From: Oscillospiraceae bacterium
Lineage (GTDB): Bacteria > Bacillota > Clostridia > Oscillospirales > Oscillospiraceae
DNA: 64,000 nt
Assembly (NCBI GenBank): GCA_902761055.1
Contig: CACWIS010000012.1
Span: forward strand, 46,925-110,924
Direction of reading: 5' to 3'
Below, in pieces: positions 15,665 to 32,931 of the stretch. Numbering within the stretch: the stretch's first letter is position 1; each line of letters starts with the position of its first letter. The notes beneath the pieces were generated by a model. The model did not search any database, was not told where the DNA came from, and worked only from the letters and a program-made list of their open reading frames with translations. A program made the translations under genes and the position numbers.

Positions 15665-16414
15665 CTATTTCAGGAGTTCCGGTACGAAGTAGCTCACCTG
15701 CTTGAACCACCACGGCCAGTCGTGCGCGACGTCCCAGCCCCAGTAGTCCACCCAGGCGGGGATGCCCTTTTCCACCAGGACGCGGTGCAGCGCGCGGGTG
15801 TGATCCGTCAGCTCCCAGGGCCCCTGCCCGACGCAGACGACGGCGCGGTGGGCGCGATAGAGCGGAAGATAGGGGTGGTCGGCGGGCATGTTCGCCAGAT
15901 AGTGCACCGGGGAGTTGAGATAGACGAGCTCGTCCATATAGCCGTCGAAGCCGTATTCCGCGCCGTACACGCCGCTGAGCGCGAGCAGCTCGTCGAAGAT
16001 CCCGGGAAAGCGAAAATAGAGATTGGCCGCGTGCATCGCGCCGAGCGAGCAGCCGAAGACCAGGATGCCCGGATCGCTCTGCCAGCCGTAGTCCCGGCAG
16101 AAGCCGCGGATATAGGGCGCGACCTCCTCCGTCACATAGCGGATCCATGCCTCGTGGCGGCGGATGCGCCAGCCGGGATCGCCGCCCTTGTTCGACCAGG
16201 TCTCCGTGTCGATCGTGTCCACGGAAAACACCGTGGCCTGTCCGGTCTCGAGAAAGGGAGCCCAGGCGCCGGTCATGCCGAAGTTCTCAAAGTCGAAGAA
16301 GCGGCCGTCCTGACAGGGGATGAACAGCACCGGCTTGCCGCCGCGGCCGTAGACCTTGAGCTCCATATCCCTGTCCAGCGCGGGGCTGTACCATTTTTCG
16401 TAATGCGTCTGCAT
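15665..16414 (-). CDS. Alpha/beta-hydrolase, esterase D-like
   Basis: A 249-residue alpha/beta-hydrolase of the putative-esterase type. The nucleophile elbow is GCSLGAMHAAN near residue 120, and a candidate catalytic His lies near WDVAHDWPWWF in the C-terminal part. No signal peptide is seen, so it acts in the cytosol. ATG at 16414 is 3 bases after the stop of the upstream gene, and that gene's GGAGGAATAA end serves as its ribosome site. It ends in TAG, one of two host genes here that do. It may hydrolyse or transfer the product of the neighbouring ATP-grasp ligase. Confidence 0.72.
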   Translation of the reverse strand: MQTHYEKWYSPALDRDMELKVYGRGGKPVLFIPCQDGRFFDFENFGMTGAWAPFLETGQATVFSVDTIDTETWSNKGGDPGWRIRRHEAWIRYVTEEVAPYIRGFCRDYGWQSDPGILVFGCSLGAMHAANLYFRFPGIFDELLALSGVYGAEYGFDGYMDELVYLNSPVHYLANMPADHPYLPLYRAHRAVVCVGQGPWELTDHTRALHRVLVEKGIPAWVDYWGWDVAHDWPWWFKQVSYFVPELLK

Positions 16415-18551: not shown

Positions 18552-20549
<1,998 letters not shown>

Positions 20550-21032: not shown

Positions 21033-21446
21033 ATGAAGATCAACATGAGCAAGAAGACCATCGAACTGACCAAGGCCGAGATGAAGGAAGCAAGCGTGTT
21101 TGGCAACGAAGCGTATGACAAGCTTCAGATCGTCCGCCGTGACTACCCCGATTTCAGAGTCGTCGAGATCAAGAACAAGAAAAATACCTCCGATTTTGCC
21201 AACCTGAAAATGGAGACGATTAAGGATTATGTTCTGAAGCATGGTACCGATGAGCAGAAGGCCAACTTCGCGCTTATCAGCAAGCGCACCGTCGGTGAGG
21301 ACGGCGAGTACTGCGAACCGCAGCCCTTCTTTCAGATCAAGGCGTGGTTCCTCAATGAGTTTCCTGAGATCAAGGAGTCGCGCAAGGACTACCGCAAAAA
21401 GGTTATCAGCATCTACGAAGCCGCAGCCGCCAAGAGCGTCGCGTGA
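21033..21446 (+). CDS. Element protein of unknown function, tandem paralog A
   Basis: A 137-residue protein without a family I recognise. Charged, no signal peptide or membrane helix. It shares a pattern with the next gene: FGNEAYDKLQIVRRDYPDFRV is like VGSKEYEQLQACRKDYPNYSV, then basic residues with KN, and near the end FFQIKAWFLNEFPEI is like YPTIKKWFLNTYPEV. The start ATG at 21033 has AAAGGATTTACC. The gene ends in TGA. Codon use is near host values for this gene (GC-richer than the rest of the element). It probably arose by tandem duplication; a role in DNA binding is only a guess from the charge. Confidence 0.6.
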   Translation: MKINMSKKTIELTKAEMKEASVFGNEAYDKLQIVRRDYPDFRVVEIKNKKNTSDFANLKMETIKDYVLKHGTDEQKANFALISKRTVGEDGEYCEPQPFFQIKAWFLNEFPEIKESRKDYRKKVISIYEAAAAKSVA

Positions 21447-21463
21447 GAAAGGAGAAAAGAAAA

Positions 21464-21865
21464 ATGACAAACTACGCCAAGATCAACCATGCTGACAGAA
21501 CCATCGTGATGGATCGCGCCTTTGCGAAGAATGCGCAGATCGTCGGATCGAAAGAATATGAGCAGCTTCAGGCTTGCCGCAAGGATTATCCCAACTACTC
21601 TGTGGTTCAGCGCAAGATCAAGCGCAACGCAGCAAAAGAGTGCTATCGCGGATTGACCTATGTGTACATGGAAGAATACATTGCTTCCCATGAACACGCC
21701 GCGATCTTCCGCAGAAAGTATGATGAACTGAGACTTCTCGCGGAATGCCACTCCATCCGTTATCCCACGATCAAGAAATGGTTTCTGAACACCTATCCCG
21801 AAGTTGCAAGGTTTGGTATGGAAAACCTCGATGTTCGTGAAGTCCCGCTCACTGATGCAGCATAA
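21464..21865 (+). CDS. Element protein of unknown function, tandem paralog B
   Basis: A 133-residue paralog of the preceding gene. Conserved positions include EYEQLQACRKDYPNYSVV and IKKWFLNTYPEV; the two genes differ most in the middle. ATG at 21464 (MTNYAKINHAD) is chosen over an in-frame start 21 bases earlier because GAAAGGAGAAAAGAAAA precedes it. It ends in TAA, and a terminator follows at 21894. The pair forms a two-gene transcription unit. Confidence 0.6.
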   Translation: MTNYAKINHADRTIVMDRAFAKNAQIVGSKEYEQLQACRKDYPNYSVVQRKIKRNAAKECYRGLTYVYMEEYIASHEHAAIFRRKYDELRLLAECHSIRYPTIKKWFLNTYPEVARFGMENLDVREVPLTDAA

Positions 21866-21966: not shown

Positions 21967-21995
21967 TTGATAAAATCTGAATTTTATGGTATAAT
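21967..21995 (+). promoter_or_regulatory. Consensus promoter of the TAG-containing operon
   Basis: TTGATA (21967-21972), 17 bases, TATAAT (21990-21995). The first gene starts 44 bases downstream with AAAGGAGG, so the operon has all signs of being expressed. Confidence 0.82.
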
Positions 21996-22038: not shown

Positions 22039-22575
22039 ATGTATTCATATCCAAACTAGAATTTTATCTAGATCCACAAGCAATCCTACTCACGCGATTT
22101 CTTACAGATTGGAATTAGCGAATGGCAGAGAGCATGCAAAGAATTAACTCCATCTGCATTCAAGGTATATCTGTATCTTGCTAGTAATAAAGACAATTTT
22201 AGAATGGCATTGAGCAAGCAAGATATCAAAGATAAATTAGGGATTTCATTCACGCGTTTCTATGAAGCAATCATGCTTTTAAGGCGAATGCACTATATCT
22301 GTTGCAGTGGCAGCAATCAGTTTCATTTCTTTTTATCTCCAAATCCCGTTTTTGAAAAAGAGTATGGAATTGCGGATTGGGAATCTCCAAATTTGGAAAA
22401 CAATAATCCAAAATCCGAAGAGGAATTCCCAAAAACGGAACAAATTTTCCCGAAAATGAGTATAGAAATAGATAATATAGATAATATAGATATAAAAAAT
22501 ATAAATAAACCAAAACAAACCTTTGCAAATAATACAGCATGGAATGATAACATGGCAAAGGAACTAGGTTTTTAA
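22039..22575 (+). CDS. Replication-initiator-like HTH protein with two in-frame TAG codons
   Basis: A 178-codon gene that starts at ATG 22039 after AAAAAGGAGGCACAAA. Codons 7 and 11 (22057-22059, 22069-22071) are TAG; otherwise the frame is open to TAA at 22573-22575. With TAG as Gln it begins MYSYPNQNFIQIHKQSY. Residues 30-80 resemble the winged-helix part of plasmid/phage replication proteins (ISEWQRACKELTPSAFKVYL, LSKQDIKDKLGISFTRFYEA). The C-terminal third is low-complexity (EIDNIDNIDIKNIN). The only later start (ATG 22204) has no ribosome site, which supports the upstream start. First gene of the recoded operon. Confidence 0.72.
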
Positions 22576-22583
22576 GGAGAATT

Positions 22584-23063
22584 ATGTGTTTTGAAAAAGA
22601 ATTATAGAAATACATATCTTCCCTAAATTGGGAAGAGCGCAAAAGCGCGAACCAAATTCTGAATGATTATCTGAAACAAGGCAAAAACTTGCGTTTCACT
22701 TACTATGCGTTTCGCCAACTCAAAGGCCGCAGCGTCTTAAAATATCGTTTTCTTATGTTCAACAAATCGTTTTAGGATGAGATTCGAATTCAATACTTGC
22801 AGAGCATAGCAGAAGATCTCGATAATATTCTCTTCAATGGCTTGGCCTCAGAAGAGGATCTGCGCGTTATCCAAAAATGGATTGATGTTGATGCGTACAA
22901 TCGCGTCGAACGCACCTTAATAAAGATAAATTGGGGAAACCATGAGAATTATCGTTCTGCTCTTTTGCATTACTTGTTTCGGCTTTTGGAAAATATGAAA
23001 GACATTGATGTTAATGCGATAGACAACTTGATAAACACTATTATTGAGAAGGAGGGAAACTAA
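22584..23063 (+). CDS. Element protein with two in-frame TAG codons
   Basis: A 159-codon gene starting at ATG 22584 (AAGGAGAATT upstream) and ending at TAA 23061-23063. TAG lies at 22605-22607 and 22773-22775. With Gln it reads MCFEKELQKYISSLNWEERK and later FNKSFQDEIRIQYLQS, both natural-looking. No known domain; charged, helical, rich in Leu and Ile. It starts 8 bases after the previous stop, and its TAA overlaps the ATG of the next gene (TAATG). A reader using the standard code would see only the 88-codon piece from TTG 22797. Confidence 0.7.
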
Positions 23064-23323
23064 TGAATTCCACAATACAAAAAAAGTGCTGTTCCTTTTA
23101 CGACAATTACATTCTCCCGCAGTTTCGCGCCGAATGGGAACAGCGCGAGGAATGCGCCTAGCTTTTAGAAGCCTTTCTAGGAGAAGAAGGGATTACTTAT
23201 GAAGAGTTCTTCGATAATATCCAATCTTACTCTCTAGGATATGGTCTGCAGCTTCTAAGTGAAATAAACGATATGATCCCTTTTTTAGATCCAATCATGG
23301 ATTTCGATGATGCAGACATGTAA
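23063..23323 (+). CDS. Small element protein with one in-frame TAG codon
   Basis: An 86-codon gene that starts at ATG 23063, overlapping the previous TAA, with GAAGGAGGG as ribosome site. TAG at 23159-23161 is the only in-frame stop before TAA 23321-23323. It is acidic in its second half (EEGITYEEFFDNIQSYS, PIMDFDDADM) and begins MNSTIQKKCCSFYDNY. No family recognised. With TAG as Gln the joint reads EECAQLLEAFLG. Confidence 0.68.
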
Positions 23324-23342
23324 AAATGATTTCGGAAAACCA

Positions 23343-23423
23343 ATGTCTCAGGCGCGCGCCCTCAAAATAACCACTCGAAGCCAAATCCCGCAAATATCCC
23401 CCCATGGAGGTCAAAAGAAATGA
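23343..23423 (+). CDS. Possible 26-codon coupled ORF
   Basis: ATG 23343 to TGA 23421-23423, overlapping the next gene start (ATGA). The peptide begins MSQARALKITTRSQ. The ribosome site is weak, so this may be chance. Confidence 0.25.
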   Translation: MSQARALKITTRSQIPQISPHGGQKK

Positions 23424-23752
23424 AATACATTGATAATCCGTCAGGCAATTTGCTTTCCCATTGCGGCACATAGGACGGACACGGCGGCCATGCAGCAGAA
23501 CACCGCGAAGAAATGCGGCAGATCGCGCAAGAAGAAATTGCAAAGATTATTCCGCAAATACAGCAAGACGCATATGCGCAAGCCGTAAATGCACTTCTGC
23601 AAGCTTTGTAGGTAGATGTGACTACAGTTGTCGATATTGCTTTAGAAACGGGCGAAAACATCTTTCATGATGCGAGAACAAAGCACGTTATAATGAAAAG
23701 CATATTCGAGACAATAAAACAAAACTTGTAGACAGAATACACCATCAAATGA
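23420..23752 (+). CDS. Element protein with three in-frame TAG codons
   Basis: A 110-codon gene from ATG 23420 (TGGAGG nine bases upstream) to TGA 23750-23752. TAG occurs at 23471-23473, 23609-23611 and 23729-23731; no TAA or TGA occurs before the end. With Gln the joints read HCGTQDGHGG, ALLQALQVDVTTVVD and KQNLQTEYTIK. The middle (REEMRQIAQEEIAKIIPQIQ) is a long helix and may be a coiled coil. No known family. It ends the operon and is followed by about 70 bases, then a terminator. Confidence 0.7.
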
Positions 23753-23824: not shown

Positions 23825-23865
23825 AAAAAGAAGAGAAAGAGTTTTGCTCTTTCTCTTCTCTTTTT
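23825..23865. terminator. Bidirectional terminator
   Basis: AGAAGAGAAAGAG (23829-23841) pairs with CTCTTTCTCTTCT (23847-23859), with A-run and T-run flanks. It stops the TAG-containing operon and the converging XRE gene. Confidence 0.9.
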
Positions 23866-24082
23866 ATATCCGTTCGCCCGTTTCCAAGTCAGTAAAGCAG
23901 ACTTCTACAGAACAACCAAGCGCAGACGCAATCTTGTTTATTTCCGCGATCGTGAAATTATCTCGTTTCATCTTGTTTGAGAGATTCTGTCTTGATTGTT
24001 CTGTCAGATCAGCGATCTCCCCCATTGTCTTCCCTTTGCGTTTTGCGATTATACGAATCTTTTCACTTGCCGAAATATCCAT
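23864..24082 (-). CDS. XRE-family repressor
   Basis: A 72-residue helix-turn-helix protein (MDISASEKIRIIAKRKGKTM, then GEIADLTEQSRQNLSNKM). ATG at 24082 follows AAAGAGGTGATTGTT; an in-frame start 60 bases upstream lacks a site. It is the size and type of phage and mobile-element Cro/C1-like repressors. It faces the terminator of the TAG operon on one side and the 24170 promoter on the other, so it probably represses the genes that start at 24252, binding the palindrome in that promoter. Confidence 0.85.
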   Translation of the reverse strand: MDISASEKIRIIAKRKGKTMGEIADLTEQSRQNLSNKMKRDNFTIAEINKIASALGCSVEVCFTDLETGERI

Positions 24083-24169
24083 AACAATCACCTCTTTATG
24101 ATAATACATTGAAAAGTTGATTCTGTCAAATATTATTTTCATTTTTCACGAAGAAATGTAAAATAATGC

Positions 24170-24198: not shown

Positions 24199-24251
24199 AG
24201 GAACTGTAAAGAGGGGTTAACGAACCCCCAAATATGAAAGGAGACTTGCAA

Positions 24252-24527
24252 ATGTCAATCAACGATCTTGAAAGGCGCATCGAGAAGATGCAGGAATGGG
24301 AAGCACTTGCCGAAGAAGCAAGCGCAGAAGCCGAAGCAATCCGCGACGAGATCAAAACCGAAATGCTTGCGCGTGACACTGAGGAGCTTGCGGCAGGACG
24401 CTATATCATCCGTTGGACTTCCGTCCTCAGCAATAGGTTTGATACCTCAGCTTTCAAAAAGCAGTACAACGATCTGTACAAGGCCTTTACAAAGCAGGTT
24501 GCTTCCAAGAGGTTCAGCGTCGCATGA
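24252..24527 (+). CDS. Small coiled-coil element protein
   Basis: A 91-residue protein with a coiled-coil N-terminal half (INDLERRIEKMQEWEALA, then AEAEAIRDEIK) and a C-terminal basic part ending KQVASKRFSVA. This layout is common for small phage-type proteins near recombination genes. ATG 24252 is chosen because AAAGGAGACTTGCAA precedes it (another ATG lies at 24234). First gene after the XRE-controlled promoter. Function unknown. Confidence 0.65.
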   Translation: MSINDLERRIEKMQEWEALAEEASAEAEAIRDEIKTEMLARDTEELAAGRYIIRWTSVLSNRFDTSAFKKQYNDLYKAFTKQVASKRFSVA

Positions 24528-24650: not shown

Positions 24651-25301
24651 ATGAAAGAACTGACAAGTTATAATCGCGTTGCAGGATATCTGAACAAGGT
24701 TTTCGATCTGCTCAATCAAGAGTTTTTTGAAAGTGAACTTTCAAGGCCAACGATCACCATTCAAAGCACGCCGAAAGCATACGGTCATTTTTCCTTGCGC
24801 GACGATGCGTGGATTTCCAAAAACGGGAAAACGCATGAGATCAATATCGGCGCAGGAACGCTTGCAAGGCCAATCGAAAATGTATGCGCAACGCTTCTTC
24901 ATGAAATGTGCCATTACTATGACTACATAAACGGCATTCAAGATTGCAGCAGAGGCAATACCTATCACAACAAACGCTTTAAGGCCACCGCCGAAGCTCA
25001 TGGATTGATCGCAAATTATAGCGAACGATATGGATGGAGTCATACAGAGCCAAGCGACGAGCTTCTTGATTTTGTTCTGATTAACGGCCTTTCTGATATC
25101 CTTATCAATCGCAATGAATTCAGCGGCTTTGCTATAGGTGGAACGGGAACACACAGCGGAACGCAGATCACCACCACAACGCGCAAGCCAAGCAGCAGCC
25201 GCAAGTACATCTGCCCTTGCTGCGGAATGATCGTAAGAGCAACGAGGATCGTCAACATTGCTTGTCTTGATTGCGATCAGCAAATGGTTCTCGCGCCGTA
25301 G
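24651..25301 (+). CDS. SprT-like zinc metalloprotein
   Basis: A 216-residue SprT-like protein. The HExxH zinc motif is LLHEMCHYYD near residue 84, with a downstream ligand region (HNKRFKATAEAHGL). The C-terminus has a zinc ribbon (YICPCCGMIVRATRI then CLDCDQQM). SprT-like proteases cleave DNA-protein crosslinks in eukaryotes (SPRTN); prokaryotic roles are unclear. It ends in TAG (25299-25301), followed by TTC GTA TAA, so read-through would add only three residues. This is the only element gene whose first stop is TAG. Confidence 0.8.
   Translation: MKELTSYNRVAGYLNKVFDLLNQEFFESELSRPTITIQSTPKAYGHFSLRDDAWISKNGKTHEINIGAGTLARPIENVCATLLHEMCHYYDYINGIQDCSRGNTYHNKRFKATAEAHGLIANYSERYGWSHTEPSDELLDFVLINGLSDILINRNEFSGFAIGGTGTHSGTQITTTTRKPSSSRKYICPCCGMIVRATRIVNIACLDCDQQMVLAP
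24727..24744. promoter_or_regulatory. Palindromic site TTGAAAG-N4-CTTTCAA (site 2)
   Basis: TTGAAAG-TGAA-CTTTCAA inside the SprT-like gene. Same arms as site 1. It could be chance because it is in coding sequence. Confidence 0.3.
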
Positions 25302-25414: not shown

Positions 25415-25978
25415 ATGAACAAGAAAACAACTGCTTTAACAACTGAACAATTTAAAGAAATAATCACGACTATGAAAGAAGGAGCTTCGAACTTCCGTCC
25501 TAATGAGCGCATCGCAACTGCGCTTGTCTTGGAAGGTAATTTGGGATTAAGGATTAGCGACATTGTTCATCTTCGTCTTGCAGATATCATTAATGATGGT
25601 GGTCGCTATCGACTATCAATCATCGAGCAGAAAACAGGCAAACAACGCATATTTACTGTTCCACTTGTTATCCAACAGTATATAGAAAACTATTGTCTTC
25701 GCAATGACATTGGACGCAATGAGATCATCTTTCCCATAACCACAAGAGAAGTACAAAAAGTCCTTGCGCGCGTTTGTGACTATTTGGGTTATGAAGGCAT
25801 CAGCACTCACAGTTTCCGAAAATGGTACGCAACGGAGATCTACCGCAACAATGGTTATGACATTGCTCTTGTACAAAGATTGTTGCAGCATAGCAGCGCA
25901 GCCGTGACGCAGCGGTATATTGGAATCGAGCCTCAAAGGATTGAGAAAGCGATTGAAGGCCATGTTGAGCTGATATGA
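25415..25978 (+). CDS. Small tyrosine recombinase (FimB/E size)
   Basis: A 187-residue tyrosine recombinase consisting almost only of the catalytic domain. The catalytic set is visible: Arg in GLRISDIVHLRLADI, Lys in EQKTGKQR, HxxR in THSFRKWYATEIY, His in LLQHSSAAV and Tyr in TQRYIGIEP. FimB/FimE-type inversion enzymes and some small integrases have this size. ATG at 25415 follows CTAGGAGAATATC. A perfect 15-bp inverted repeat lies just upstream. Whether it inverts a segment, resolves dimers or helps the main integrase is not shown. Confidence 0.85.
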   Translation: MNKKTTALTTEQFKEIITTMKEGASNFRPNERIATALVLEGNLGLRISDIVHLRLADIINDGGRYRLSIIEQKTGKQRIFTVPLVIQQYIENYCLRNDIGRNEIIFPITTREVQKVLARVCDYLGYEGISTHSFRKWYATEIYRNNGYDIALVQRLLQHSSAAVTQRYIGIEPQRIEKAIEGHVELI

Positions 25979-26656: not shown

Positions 26657-28657
26657 TCATGTCAAATCTTTCTCTGTATCACTATCAGATATAGTAGTTT
26701 CATATACCCAGTGAAACCCTTTGCAAGTCTTTATTGTCCCTCTACAGCAATTTTTGATTGTTTCGCTTTTGCAGTTATAACTCTCTGCTGCTAAAGCAGC
26801 ACTATCAAATCGTTCACCAGTTTCGAGGTTAATCACTGCTTTTGTTCTTGCTTTCGCTCGCCGTTTTATGGAACACTTTGGGCATCCCTCTCCTTTCATC
26901 AAATGGTATGGTGTATTTTCCCAAACGTTTCCGCAAATTCTGCATTTACATTTTATCTTGTTACGAGAACGAGTATATTCGCCCACCACCTCAATATTGT
27001 GGTCAATTTCTTGCATTATTGCTTTAAAATCTTCTGTTGTTCTCATGCGCGAATTACTATATGCCTGCTTTATTATTTGATCCCATTCTGCTTCCGATAT
27101 TGAAACAGATTGAGAAGAGATCATCTCTGCTAGGTTAGTAATAAGCTTTTTTAGTGTTATATTACCTTTTTCTGCTCCTAGGTCTTTTTCAAATACAATA
27201 CAGTCTTGATCAAATGGTTTGCTTTCCTCAGAAAAACTATCAAAAATAAATATCAATCTAATCTCTTTTTGTTCACAGAGTCTTTTTTTCTCAGTGTCTT
27301 GTTTTATTCTAGGCTTATGCCAATACCACGATCCTATTTCAACTGCAGTTTTATACTTTGGCAATAAGATATCAAGTTCTCGTCCTATACTTTGTTTGTT
27401 TCTAGATTTTACTTCTTTTTCTCCAAATACTGCTTTAAAGGCTTCAAACATTACTTGCTCGGAAAATGAAGTCGGTGCATGACAGCACTTTGGACATCCC
27501 GTTCCTTTTAGCAGATTCTGCGGAGTTGCTTTCCAAGTATTACCACACTCTAAACACTTAACCGCTATATTTGTTCTACCATTTACGTATTTCCCAATTA
27601 CTGAAATAGATGGATTAATCTTTTCTAGTTCTTGAACAAACACATCGTGTTGTTTAGTTAAGTTTCCTGCGCAATTAGGACATCCTCCCCCTCGAAGCAG
27701 TACTGTTGGAATTGGATCCCATATATATCCGCATGTCTTACACATGACTCTTATTGGAGTAGTTACCGATTCATACTTCCCTAAAACACAAACGTTTGGC
27801 TGGCTTTTTTTCACCTCATCCAAAAAACCATCATTTGTACGACGATTCTTATCTGCACGTTGTTTAATTGCGCACTTTGGACAACCTCTTCCTGCAAGCA
27901 GACTTCCCGCATTTGGTTCCCAACACTCGCCACATTTTTTACACTTAACTTCAATGTGGTTTTTATTGCCGCGATAAATACCGATTACCTCAATATCAGG
28001 ATTAATCATTCCAAGCTTATCTACATACTCTTCGTGCGGCATCATTCTTGTGTCGGATAATTGTTTGTTAACGCATCTTTTGCAACCATGCCCCTTTAGC
28101 AAATTGCTTGGAAAAGCATCCCATATATAGCCACACCTAGTGCACTGAACTTGTATCTTTGTCTTTGATTTTGAATACTCACCTAGAATAATTATAGATG
28201 GATTGATTTTTCCCATCTCTTCAACAAAAGTGTTGTGTGATTTTGCTTGGTTATTTGCCCTTCTTTCAAGGTTACACTTATTACAGCCTACACCCTTTAG
28301 TAATTGACTTGCCCAGACCTCGCGTCTCTCACCACATAGCAAGCATTCTATTAGCACTTTTTCACTTTTACCTTTATACTCACTAAGAAGCTTTATTGTC
28401 GGATTAATCTTTAAGACTTCTTCAGCAAACTGTTCGTTGCTCTTTCTTTGTTGATCATGAACCCGCTTCATTGAGCATTTTCTACAGCCGTTTCCTCGCA
28501 AGAGACGATCTGGCGTGGTTTCCCACTTATTACCGCACTCTAGGCACTCAACTAAGATTTTTTCTCTTGCCTTAATATATTTTGTCCGTGGAATAATCAT
28601 AGGATTTATTATTGCAAGCTCTTCAAGGAATTGCTCATTTGTCTTTTGTTTTGACAT
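26657..28657 (-). CDS. Seven zinc-ribbon repeats with a PD-(D/E)XK nuclease core
   Basis: A 666-residue multidomain protein. Seven repeats of about 65 residues share NPxI...G.Y....KI.V.C..CG..W...P..LL.G.GC..C, the DUF4379-like treble-clef/zinc-ribbon. Six are N-terminal. Then comes a nuclease core: SFSEQVMFEAFKAVFG, RELDILLPKYKTAVEIGSWY with WH next (the D and E of a PD-(D/E)XK site), and RLCEQKEIRLIFIFDSF. A seventh repeat follows, and the C-terminus (NLETGERFDSAALAAESYNC, ETIKNCC) looks like a NUMOD-type DNA-binding motif of homing enzymes. ATG 28657 follows AAAGGTGATAATA. It may be a defence or homing nuclease; target unknown. Confidence 0.75.
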   Translation of the reverse strand: MSKQKTNEQFLEELAIINPMIIPRTKYIKAREKILVECLECGNKWETTPDRLLRGNGCRKCSMKRVHDQQRKSNEQFAEEVLKINPTIKLLSEYKGKSEKVLIECLLCGERREVWASQLLKGVGCNKCNLERRANNQAKSHNTFVEEMGKINPSIIILGEYSKSKTKIQVQCTRCGYIWDAFPSNLLKGHGCKRCVNKQLSDTRMMPHEEYVDKLGMINPDIEVIGIYRGNKNHIEVKCKKCGECWEPNAGSLLAGRGCPKCAIKQRADKNRRTNDGFLDEVKKSQPNVCVLGKYESVTTPIRVMCKTCGYIWDPIPTVLLRGGGCPNCAGNLTKQHDVFVQELEKINPSISVIGKYVNGRTNIAVKCLECGNTWKATPQNLLKGTGCPKCCHAPTSFSEQVMFEAFKAVFGEKEVKSRNKQSIGRELDILLPKYKTAVEIGSWYWHKPRIKQDTEKKRLCEQKEIRLIFIFDSFSEESKPFDQDCIVFEKDLGAEKGNITLKKLITNLAEMISSQSVSISEAEWDQIIKQAYSNSRMRTTEDFKAIMQEIDHNIEVVGEYTRSRNKIKCKCRICGNVWENTPYHLMKGEGCPKCSIKRRAKARTKAVINLETGERFDSAALAAESYNCKSETIKNCCRGTIKTCKGFHWVYETTISDSDTEKDLT

Positions 28658-28797
28658 TATTATCACCTTTGCATCATGAATCTGAAGTTATTTACAGTAT
28701 AAATTAATTCCCATCTTCATTCAACACCATTAGTTCATACATTGAAAACCATGTTTGCAAATGGTAAACTATTTCATATGAAAGTGAGGCGTGTAAA

Positions 28798-29826
28798 GTG
28801 CCAAAATCGGAAAAGCAGAAACTAAAAACTCTATATGTCGCCAAGTTTTTTCTAGAATACTCCGATGAGAATCATGCTGTCAGCGCAGGAGATATCATTG
28901 ACTACCTAGAAGACGAATGCGACATTACTGCAGACAGGCGCAGCATCTATCGTGATATCGCAGCTTTGCGTGATGATTTTGGAATGGACATTGAAGGTGG
29001 TCAAGGCGGCAGATATCGTCTTGTTTCGCGGCAATTTGATATGGACGATCTCAGAATCCTAGCTGAGTGCGTCAGAGCGGCGAAGTTCATTTCCAATACG
29101 AAATCCAAAGAGATTATTGAATCGTTAGAATCTCTTTGCAGCATCTATGAAGCAGATCAACTGAACTCAGAAATCTATCTTGTAAACAGAGTTAAAACCA
29201 CGCAGAAAGGCACTCTGAACATTCTCAGTACAATCAATGCAGCAATGGCGCGAAAGGTCGACGGCAAGCCGCATGAACCGCAGAAAATCTCTTTCAAGTA
29301 TCTTCGTTATGATGTAAAAGATCTGAATTCTCCCTTAGACAATCGCAAAGGAAATCTCCGAATCGTAAGTCCGTTTTATCTGATTCTAAATGACGGATAT
29401 TATTATCTTCTCGCCTTTGATGATAAGCACAAAGACATTCGCCGCTTCCGCATTGACAGAATGAGAGAAGTAAAGCTTCTCGATGAACCACGTGAAGGCG
29501 CAGAAGCATTTTCCGAAATTGACATGCGAGACTATACGCAGCGCGTTTTCAGTATGTATGAAGGGAAAACGCATCGTGTGACCTTGCGCTTTGTTAAAGA
29601 CCTTCTCGATACGGTTATCGACCGTTTTGGTACTACGGGGGATATCATGTACCATGCAGTAGATTACAATCATTTCTCCGTCACTGTTGAGGTAGATGTA
29701 AGTCCTCAGTTTTTCGCGTGGCTTTGCGGCTTTGGGAACAAGGTCAAAATAATGGAACCGAAAGAGGTAAGGAAGGAATATCAAGACTATCTTGAAAAGA
29801 TCCTTGGTTTGTATGGCCGATATTGA
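28798..29826 (+). CDS. WYL-domain transcriptional regulator
   Basis: A 342-residue regulator. An N-terminal winged helix (residues about 5-75, VSAGDIIDYLEDECDI, DRRSIYRDIAALRDDFG) is followed by a WYL domain (IVSPFYLILNDGYYYLLAF, RRFRIDRMREVKLLD) and a WCX-type C-terminal domain (VTLRFVKDLLDTVIDRFG). WYL proteins bind ligands such as nucleotides or single-stranded nucleic acid and often control defence islands. GTG at 28798 follows GTGAGGCGTGTAAA. It is oriented away from the nuclease gene. Its own operator may be the palindrome at 29823. Confidence 0.88.
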   Translation: MPKSEKQKLKTLYVAKFFLEYSDENHAVSAGDIIDYLEDECDITADRRSIYRDIAALRDDFGMDIEGGQGGRYRLVSRQFDMDDLRILAECVRAAKFISNTKSKEIIESLESLCSIYEADQLNSEIYLVNRVKTTQKGTLNILSTINAAMARKVDGKPHEPQKISFKYLRYDVKDLNSPLDNRKGNLRIVSPFYLILNDGYYYLLAFDDKHKDIRRFRIDRMREVKLLDEPREGAEAFSEIDMRDYTQRVFSMYEGKTHRVTLRFVKDLLDTVIDRFGTTGDIMYHAVDYNHFSVTVEVDVSPQFFAWLCGFGNKVKIMEPKEVRKEYQDYLEKILGLYGRY

Positions 29827-30707: not shown

Positions 30708-31613
30708 TTAGTTTAGGTTTGACAACACACTTGTTTTCTTCGCGTTGGCAATAATCTGAGAATCTTGTATGGATTCAAGATACCGTTGAGTAATCGCAAC
30801 GTTTTCATGGCCTAGTATTCTGCTAAGACTGTAAAGATCAAGTCCATTGTAGATTTGTTGCTGCGCGAAGGTATGTCTGCATGTATGCGGAGATACTCTT
30901 ACCATGGATCTGACGCTAACTGCTTTCGCGCAATCCTTCATGAACTTGTTTACTGCTTGTCCATTCATCCGTTTTCCGTTTTTGGAAAGGAACAGAAAGT
31001 CTTCTGCCTTTCTGCGTTGAAAGTATTTTGCCTTTGCCGCCGTGTACTTCAGAAGCGTTTTTGATACAAGTGGATTCTTTGGAACTACTCTTTCCTTCTT
31101 TCCTTTTCCGTAGACAATGAAATATGAATCTTGAATCTGCGCTTCTCTCATATCGCACAATTCGTTGACGCGAATTCCCGTATCGAACAGCATCATCAAA
31201 ATCAGTTTGTTTCGAATGTCGATATAGTTGTTGCCGTTGTAGTAAGAGATCATCTTCTTAATCTCTTCTCTTGAAAAGGTGTGTATCAGCGTTTTCGGTT
31301 CTTTGACATTTTTGATTTCCGCAGTAATCAGATAATCCTCGTATTTCTCTTTGTACGCATAAGCGCACAGAACCTTTACCGCTTTCAGATTGTCGTTCAC
31401 ATACGACGGTTTACATTGCCGCAACTGATAATGCTTGATGAACGCCTTGACATGCGTTGGCTTCAACTCTTCTAGCTCGTCGAGATCAAACTCTTCTTTC
31501 AAAAAATCCGTGAAATGCCTTAACTGCTTTTTGTAGTTCTCCACTGTCATTTTCGAATACTCTCTGATCTCGCACTCGAAAAGGAACTCCTTGACCAACG
31601 TTTCCATCTTCAT
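30708..31613 (-). CDS. Tyrosine integrase of the element
   Basis: A 301-residue site-specific tyrosine recombinase. The N-terminal core-binding domain (about 1-90) is of SAM-like type (ENYKKQLRHFTDFLKEEF). Catalytic residues: Arg in FDTGIRVNELCDMRE, Lys in YGKGKKERVVP, HxxR in SPHTCRHTFAQQ, His in ILGHENVAI and Tyr in TQRYLES. It ends in TAA. Start ATG 31613 (MKMETLVKEFL) lies right after a hairpin that contains its ribosome site. It is 185 bases from attR, the normal place for an integrase. It most likely recombines at the gapA repeats. Confidence 0.9.
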   Translation of the reverse strand: MKMETLVKEFLFECEIREYSKMTVENYKKQLRHFTDFLKEEFDLDELEELKPTHVKAFIKHYQLRQCKPSYVNDNLKAVKVLCAYAYKEKYEDYLITAEIKNVKEPKTLIHTFSREEIKKMISYYNGNNYIDIRNKLILMMLFDTGIRVNELCDMREAQIQDSYFIVYGKGKKERVVPKNPLVSKTLLKYTAAKAKYFQRRKAEDFLFLSKNGKRMNGQAVNKFMKDCAKAVSVRSMVRVSPHTCRHTFAQQQIYNGLDLYSLSRILGHENVAITQRYLESIQDSQIIANAKKTSVLSNLN

Positions 31614-31656
31614 AAAAAACCTCTTTCTGCCCCAAATAACGGTAAGCAGAAAGAGG
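31614..31656 (-). promoter_or_regulatory. Leader hairpin in front of the integrase gene
   Basis: On the minus strand CCTCTTTCTGC, a 15-base loop and GCAGAAAGAGG (perfect 11-bp stem) are followed by TTTTTT and then the start ATG. The AGAGG part of the stem is the probable ribosome site. The structure can act as a terminator or hide the site. Confidence 0.7.
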
Positions 31657-31680
31657 TTTAACAACGATTTTTGTCTTTCA

Positions 31681-31740
31681 AACAGTTTCTCCAACAGATG
31701 ATTGTTGTTCCAACAGCCAACAGTTTCTCAAATTGAGAGA
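31681..31740. repeat. Short repeats between integrase gene and attR
   Basis: CCAACAG occurs at 31691, 31710 and 31717; AACAGTTTCTC occurs at 31681-31691 and 31719-31729; TCTCAA-A-TTGAGA (31726-31738) is a palindrome. Such clusters beside an att site are typical arm-type binding sites for integrase. Confidence 0.5.

Positions 31741-31793: not shown

Positions 31794-32931
<1,138 letters not shown>

Follow-up and report, generated by a model that had tools for sequence, protein, structure and literature searches.

In-frame TAG codons at glutamine sites in one gene set of small integrative elements from Clostridia

Four TAG-containing genes in an integrated element

The window, the whole 64,000-nucleotide stretch of an Oscillospiraceae genome analysed here (G000:C12:46925-110924; parent assembly 1.89 Mb, completeness 81%), carries an integrated element in which four consecutive open reading frames (ORFs) contain eight in-frame TAG codons without an internal TAA or TGA. 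Codon use in this element and its relatives strongly supports a reading of TAG as glutamine in one replication/nuclease gene set. All eight positions listed in a first-pass annotation of the DNA were recovered, together with the ATG starts, the ribosome sites, the TAATG overlap and the terminal stops (TAA, TAA, TAA and TGA). Under table 15, ORF1 to ORF4 comprise 178, 159, 86 and 110 codons, respectively. The genes and their flanking sites are arranged as follows.

21967..21995, + strand: promoter-like TTGATA-17-TATAAT, 11/12 consensus match, upstream of the TAG genes
22039..22575, + strand: ORF1, winged-helix protein with a weak replication-initiator likeness; TAG at 22057 (invariant Gln site) and 22069
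22584..23063, + strand: ORF2, no family named; TAG at 22605 and 22773
23063..23323, + strand: ORF3, no family named, TAATG overlap with ORF2; TAG at 23159
23420..23752, + strand: ORF4, homologous to a gene of genome G1345 in which TAG likewise occurs early; TAG at 23471, 23609 and 23729
23829..23859, + strand: terminator-like hairpin, downstream of the TAG genes

The promoter proposed at 21967-21995 is present. As expression signals, this site and the hairpin flanking the genes on the other side are suggestive only, because such sites are also frequent in shuffled sequence: the scan returns 13 promoter-like sites versus 8.0 (standard deviation 2.4) in shuffles, and 5 terminator-like sites versus 2.9 (standard deviation 1.7).

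In the host, TAG acts as a stop codon, as the first-pass annotation had claimed. Of 40 long ORFs that do not overlap and were picked mechanically from the sequence around the element, 5 end in TAG, which rules out recoding across the whole host, and readthrough of the TAG at 15665 would join two separate, unrelated proteins. Element genes outside the TAG set end in all three stops, the SprT-like gene ending in TAG (25301). TAG as a sense codon is confined to one gene set, not spread genome-wide as in code 15.

The model of ORF1 (mean predicted local distance difference test score 73.9) is good from approximately residue 10 to 110 and has a winged-helix appearance. Fold matches in the PDB are weak, the best being primosome DnaB (E 0.019), and a weak PHROG match leads to replication initiation proteins (E 0.005, or 1e-4 for the relative in phage record G897). 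The model and this match make a role in replication or regulation likely; NCBIfam gave no match for 21 ORF1 members.

Glutamine at the TAG sites of related elements

ORF1 was searched six times with growing alignments, in 150, 391, 70, 345, 398 and 315 genomes (1,669 look-ups, overlaps included). The family-wide search yielded a second genome, G147 (Oscillospiraceae, Clostridia), in which ORF1 is 39% identical and has TAG at the aligned place. Altogether, ORF1 is found in 23 Clostridia genomes as 24 genome copies, G587 holding two (L131, L132), one with TAG and one without. Five IMG/VR loci, a second copy in L104 and one in L290 bring the number to 31, with L100 and L101 encoding the same protein. 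The G544 copy is counted (E 2e-6), its match covering positions 3-27 only and the remainder being unrelated. Weaker matches (E > 1e-6), mostly restricted to the helix-turn-helix part, were left out, amounting to 19 of 22 rows in the 391-genome search and 9 of 17 in the 345-genome search; one of those dropped, G831:C24 (E 4e-4), has one TGA and one TAG within the match. At 1e-10, the phylum sample of 398 genomes gave no ORF1 match besides the window's own. No match was obtained by tblastn in phages (window and G147 proteins) or plasmids (G147 protein), nor in viral scans with single proteins, a later scan returning only the contigs L309 and L310.

TAG occurs within ORF1 in 9 of the 24 genome copies: the window, G147, G403, G554, G587:C15, G890, G1342, G1338 and G1345. 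At the N-terminal 'PN-Q-K/R' site, corresponding to 22057 in the window, the codon is TAG in 5 copies (the window, G147, G554, G587:C15 and phage G896), CAA in 18 and CAG in 8, giving glutamine or TAG in 31/31. Aligning homologues to see the residue at the TAG positions, a check proposed beforehand, hence returns glutamine at this ORF1 site in every copy without TAG (CAA or CAG in 26/31). The residue, Gln7, is among five invariant columns of a 21-member alignment in which TAG is translated as Gln. Two of the signs named in advance as contrary to recoding are not seen: in the homologues the 5' part and a ribosome site precede the TAG, and no frameshifts or deletions at the TAGs are seen in the ORF1 alignments. 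The claim of TAG as glutamine limited to one gene set is thus supported. It does not account for every TAG: at 22069 the partners are mixed (Lys 9, Ile 5, Thr 5, Val 4, His 4, Asn 2, Ala 1, Gln 1), and for ORF2 and ORF3 no homologues were found in the 30 loci searched. ORF4 and its G1345 homologue have early TAGs near similar residues, yet BLAST leaves these two TAGs unaligned.

Across 13 elements, 24 TAG genes contain 42 internal TAG and 142 CAA or CAG codons; TAA and TGA occur in them only as terminal stops (16 and 8 genes, respectively), and none of the genes terminates in TAG. Because openness under table 15 was the criterion by which these genes were chosen, the absence of internal TAA and TGA is partly built in and the stop count alone is no test; the glutamine partners are the test. 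At least one TAG gene is present in 13 of the 24 ORF1-bearing elements, the other 11 having been read in part. Three TAGs per gene are reached in the window ORF4, in G1345 ORF1 and in one gene each of G571, G1302 and G1361.

Five elements (G587, G1338, G1302, G1361 and G789) have a GIY-YIG gene behind ORF1, and all carry TAG at one and the same codon of it (54), including elements in which ORF1 is free of TAG. In two of the five copies scanned the PF01541 match runs across the TAG codon (residues 29-113; 23.0 and 22.8 bits, cut-off 22.6), and these two also match the phrog_1111 endonuclease; one GIY-YIG copy matches T4-type endonuclease II. PADLOC, applied to six TAG genes, named none except for a weak PDC-S14 match of the G587 GIY-YIG protein. 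At L305:8403-8834 and L131:9501-9929 a ribosome site lies ahead of the GIY-YIG start, and this start overlaps the stop of ORF1, an arrangement that suggests coupled translation. The gene is missing from the window element, and the window's own genome gave no match.

In a nuclease-like ORF of G403 and G571, one TAG codon (42) is common to both; the unshared TAGs comprise one each in G403 and G571 opposite Gln and one in G571 opposite Asn. A motif hints at PD-(D/E)XK for this ORF, no family having matched with assurance. From its better start the G403 copy has 2 TAGs (the upstream start would give 4), and the partner tally used a stretch beginning before the chosen ATG, both TAGs being included in either version. 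In the GIY-YIG genes and in the nuclease-like ones, a TAG of one homologue can stand where another has a Gln codon. A small gene ahead of ORF1 also has TAG in G890, G1342 and G1338. Outside the 24-gene count, a ribbon-helix-helix-like small frame of G571 (L130:2496, - strand) has a TAG opposite a Gln of G403.

The statistics were made without correction for relatedness or number of tests. Counted over BLAST pairs, with duplicated loci and related sequences among them, the partner at TAG columns is Gln in 187/345 cases (54%); its share is 39% of 1,758 where the column is CAA or CAG, and 2.7% elsewhere. Gln is the commonest partner at 12/34 TAG, 1/35 TAA and 0/15 TGA sites (Fisher p 5e-5) in a culled tally of stops inside alignments between loci; by eye, the TAA and TGA sites of this tally are mostly ahead of a start or at an end. 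This tally holds two further possible TAG sites, L139:13747 (partner Glu) and L140:1949 (partner Lys). A six-frame tally of all stops was set aside as too noisy because it included antisense frames, and the culled and chosen-gene tallies were used in its place. Core genes outside the set show a single TAG in 69 alignments (331 CAA/CAG codons), located before the ATG, and ORF1 shows 10 TAG and 123 CAA/CAG in 30 alignments; the integrase, the WYL regulator and the other core genes have no TAG after the start.

Within the genes, TAG lies early. In ORF1 of nine elements it accounts for 7 of 13 Gln-type codons up to codon 12 and for 7 of 60 beyond it (p 0.002), and over the 24 genes the first TAG has a relative position of 0.26, versus 0.38 if TAGs were dealt randomly over the Gln codons (P 0.005). 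The base 3' of the 42 TAGs is A in 23, C in 13, G in 5 and T in 1; T follows 21/140 CAA/CAG codons (p 0.03).

The element itself is inserted at the 3' end of the gap gene, bounded by perfect 64-bp direct repeats spaced 11,338 bp apart (element ~11.3 kb), in agreement with the integrated element recognised on first pass. Around the TAG genes it consists of the following features.

20460..20523: left attachment (att) repeat, 64 bp, copy of the gap 3' end, identical to 31798-31861
21033..21446, + strand: small protein, first of a related pair, recurs in relatives, without TAG
21443..21865, + strand: small protein, second of the pair, recurs in relatives, without TAG
23864..24142, - strand: Cro/CI-type repressor, without TAG
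24234..24527, + strand: small protein, phrog_6244/434-like, without TAG
24651..25301, + strand: SprT-like protein, own stop TAG
25415..25978, + strand: second tyrosine recombinase, without TAG
26657-28666, - strand: CapR/DUF4379 zinc-finger HNH-type endonuclease, inside the element
28798..29826, + strand: WYL-domain regulator, recurs in relatives, without TAG
30708..31694, - strand: tyrosine integrase, adjoining the right att repeat, without TAG
31798..31861: right att repeat, inside the resident gap gene at its 3' end, identical to the left repeat

A KTSC protein is also encoded within the element. Virion or packaging families were not recognised in the 15 element proteins scanned, once two marginal matches are disregarded, one between the repressor and a terminase small subunit (E 0.011), the other between ORF4 and VG15 (E 0.093). 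The gap gene (31794-32850, - strand) is split in this assembly by a frameshift near residue 50, an error or a mutation. Exact direct repeats bound 7 of 10 elements tested, the window element and six relatives; the same test found none in G890, G1342 and G674.

G403 element: tRNA-Leu, 59-bp repeat, 9.6 kb
G147 element: tRNA-Pro, 49-bp repeat, 6.5 kb
G1338 element: tRNA-Ala, 84-bp repeat, 5.0 kb
G587 element: tRNA-Lys, 46-bp repeat, 6.7 kb
G1345 element: inside a gene, 98-bp repeat, 9.2 kb
G789 element: tRNA-Ser, 53-bp repeat, 11.8 kb

Decoding of the TAG codons

Matches to RF00005 were run through ARAGORN, which calls a CUA tRNA 'Pyl', and the few uncalled ones were inspected by eye. The CUA tRNA for which the first-pass annotation proposed a search was not found among the 34 tRNA matches of the window's host or in the element. 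No CUA tRNA appears in any tRNA match of five hosts scanned in full (G000 34/34, G147 44/44, G403 30/30, G890 40/40 and G554 41/41; assembly completeness 81-96%) or in the 34 of 40 matches scanned in G587 (74-96% with this genome included). Pyrrolysine at UAG finds no support, as a tRNA with anticodon CUA is not among the matches of the five hosts. The window element gives no tRNA match at E up to 10, ARAGORN finds no CUA tRNA in the element loci, and a single CUA anticodon stem-loop, lacking a T-loop, turns up when six element regions are scanned. A suppressor tRNA of their own, the Sup-CTA tRNA of code-15 phages, is thus not found in the elements.

In two phages, G897 (record of 89 kb) and G898 (181 kb), an ORF1 relative occurs together with a CUA tRNA, which in G897 is closest to host tRNA-Gln(ttg) by a small margin and in G898 to tRNA-Arg(cct). 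In the 20 kb of G897 read, 22 TAGs fall within 8 of 27 table-15 ORFs, three of them in the ORF1 relative. From the TAG counts and TAG-ended ORFs, recoding is likely for G897 and less evident for G898. G897 also encodes, among many neighbouring tRNAs, one with anticodon UUA (L176:5698-5771), which could read UAA.

We lean slightly towards the genes being held under a UAG lock that is opened in trans by a suppressor, probably from a hypothetical TAG-recoded helper phage. It is suggested by the early position of the TAGs and their occurrence at shared codons, by genes in which more than one TAG would have to be passed, by elements in which no decoder was found, and by ORF1 relatives that reside in phages carrying a CUA tRNA. 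Maintenance and integration genes would be written in the standard code, and the ORF1 gene set (the winged-helix protein, small proteins and, in relatives, GIY-YIG or other nuclease-like proteins) with UAG for glutamine. In an uninfected host, UAG would stop translation, keeping the set off even when transcribed. The genes would become readable only once an efficient UAG-to-Gln suppressor is present, and replication and nuclease functions would then start; a TAG-recoded phage infecting the cell would most likely bring this suppressor as its CUA tRNA. Resident elements may thereby sense a virus through its genetic code, the suppressor tRNA awakening the UAG-locked genes, possibly to attack the invader, although we regard this further step as somewhat doubtful.

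Several observations weigh against the lock. On the side of the elements, ORF1 is free of TAG in 15/24 genome copies, and in G890 and G1342 it may be cut short, since the profile match extends beyond the terminating TAA and the ORFs (113 and 107 codons) are shorter than others. A single ORF1 site supplies 132/187 of the Gln partners, the other TAG columns having Gln in 55/213 (26%), below the CAA/CAG columns. At the shared GIY-YIG site, a sixth copy, in G625, has Ser, with TAG at three other codons, and the residue is Gly in the phage contigs L309 and L310 and Phe in L311; TAGs are located elsewhere in the first two homologues (4 in L309, 5 in L310), and L311 has none. On the side of the supplier, TAG is the stop of 2/22 standard-code ORFs in G897, the best candidate. 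G898 (7 TAGs in 6/25 table-15 ORFs) is near G895 (3 in 3/26), a 52-kb record with no CUA tRNA among 12 tRNA matches. Phage G896 (179 kb, possibly a fragment) has TAG in ORF1, no CUA tRNA among 9 matches, and 2/24 ORFs ending with TAG; 3 TAGs occur in 3/24 of its table-15 ORFs. In L309 and L310, possible fragments with TAG-rich early genes, no tRNA was found. Nor does the absence of a decoder prove outside supply, because among predicted table-15 phages a Sup-CTA tRNA is found in 375/715 and lacking in 340/715, as given in excerpts of PMC11210395.

The same two contigs show an arrangement of their own, in which TAGs lie in the replication initiator and GIY-YIG genes (L309:1332-2535, L310:1327-2533) and not in the terminase or endolysin, the reverse of late-gene recoding.

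Leaky or programmed readthrough, in which a host tRNA-Gln would read UAG at a low rate and keep the proteins scarce with no outside suppressor, is an unlikely explanation. Since tRNA-Gln is near-cognate for UAG, glutamine at the TAG sites would suit it, as would the single early ORF1 TAG of G896 in a phage lacking a detected CUA tRNA, and the rarity of T and abundance of A after TAG. With up to three TAGs per gene, however, losses under leaky readthrough would multiply, and no fixed motif, judged by eye, is common to the 42 TAG contexts.

A little less probable is an unrecognised decoder of the element or a companion locus, for instance an unusual tRNA, a factor that modifies tRNAs or an antagonist of release factors. 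Several element genes match no known function, and the table-15 phages without a recognisable Sup-CTA tRNA (nearly half, in the excerpted PMC11210395) would fit it; the tRNA, stem-loop and ARAGORN results on the elements given above all speak against it.

Recent capture of the TAG genes from TAG-recoded phages, leaving silent, drifting passengers, we consider very unlikely. ORF1 relatives in CUA-tRNA phages and the two copies possibly truncated by TAA would fit, but diverged elements share TAG codons (ORF1 Gln7, GIY-YIG 54, nuclease-like 42), the 24 genes, picked as table-15-open, have no other internal stop, and exact att repeats persist in most elements tested. Decay or assembly error is barely credible: the neighbouring gap gene is indeed frameshifted in this assembly, but the same TAG pattern recurs in separately assembled genomes of several families, and chance decay is ruled out by the homologues.

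Relation to known systems

The gene that follows ORF1 in five relatives resembles phage endonuclease II and Pfam GIY-YIG, the family of T4 endonuclease II (DenA). Unlike the T4 enzyme, it has in-frame TAGs, and it is a gene of the relatives, absent from the window element.

In its gene content, the window element resembles phage-inducible chromosomal islands (PICIs) and other phage satellites, being small, att-bounded and equipped with an integrase and repressor-type regulators, with no virion gene recognised. It is a small integrative element and probably a parasite of the phage-satellite type, living in Oscillospiraceae and their relatives among the Clostridia. The proposed trigger would differ from that of PICIs, being the helper's genetic code rather than a helper protein.

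As in code-15 phages such as recoded Crassvirales, TAG is used for glutamine within genes in hosts of the standard code, and for those phages a CUA suppressor tRNA and recoding are proposed to time expression (excerpts of PMC10879173 and PMC11210395). Unlike them, the carriers here are integrative elements of 5-12 kb, the window element having no recognised virion gene or CUA tRNA, and the recoded genes are replication- or nuclease-like, not structural or lytic. TAG-recoded phages in which recoding is linked to expression timing were reportedly also described by Borges in 2022. Titles and abstract starts in the open-licence PMC literature, among the matches listed, describe no such elements. 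Standard annotation fragments these TAG genes, hiding an element family found in 23 Clostridia genomes. In conclusion, stop-codon recoding is already known as something phages do for their own genes; a non-phage family with UAG as sense in a fixed gene set, its other genes and its hosts retaining UAG as a stop, would, if the lock is real, turn recoding into a lock and provide a testable new way for one mobile element to detect another.
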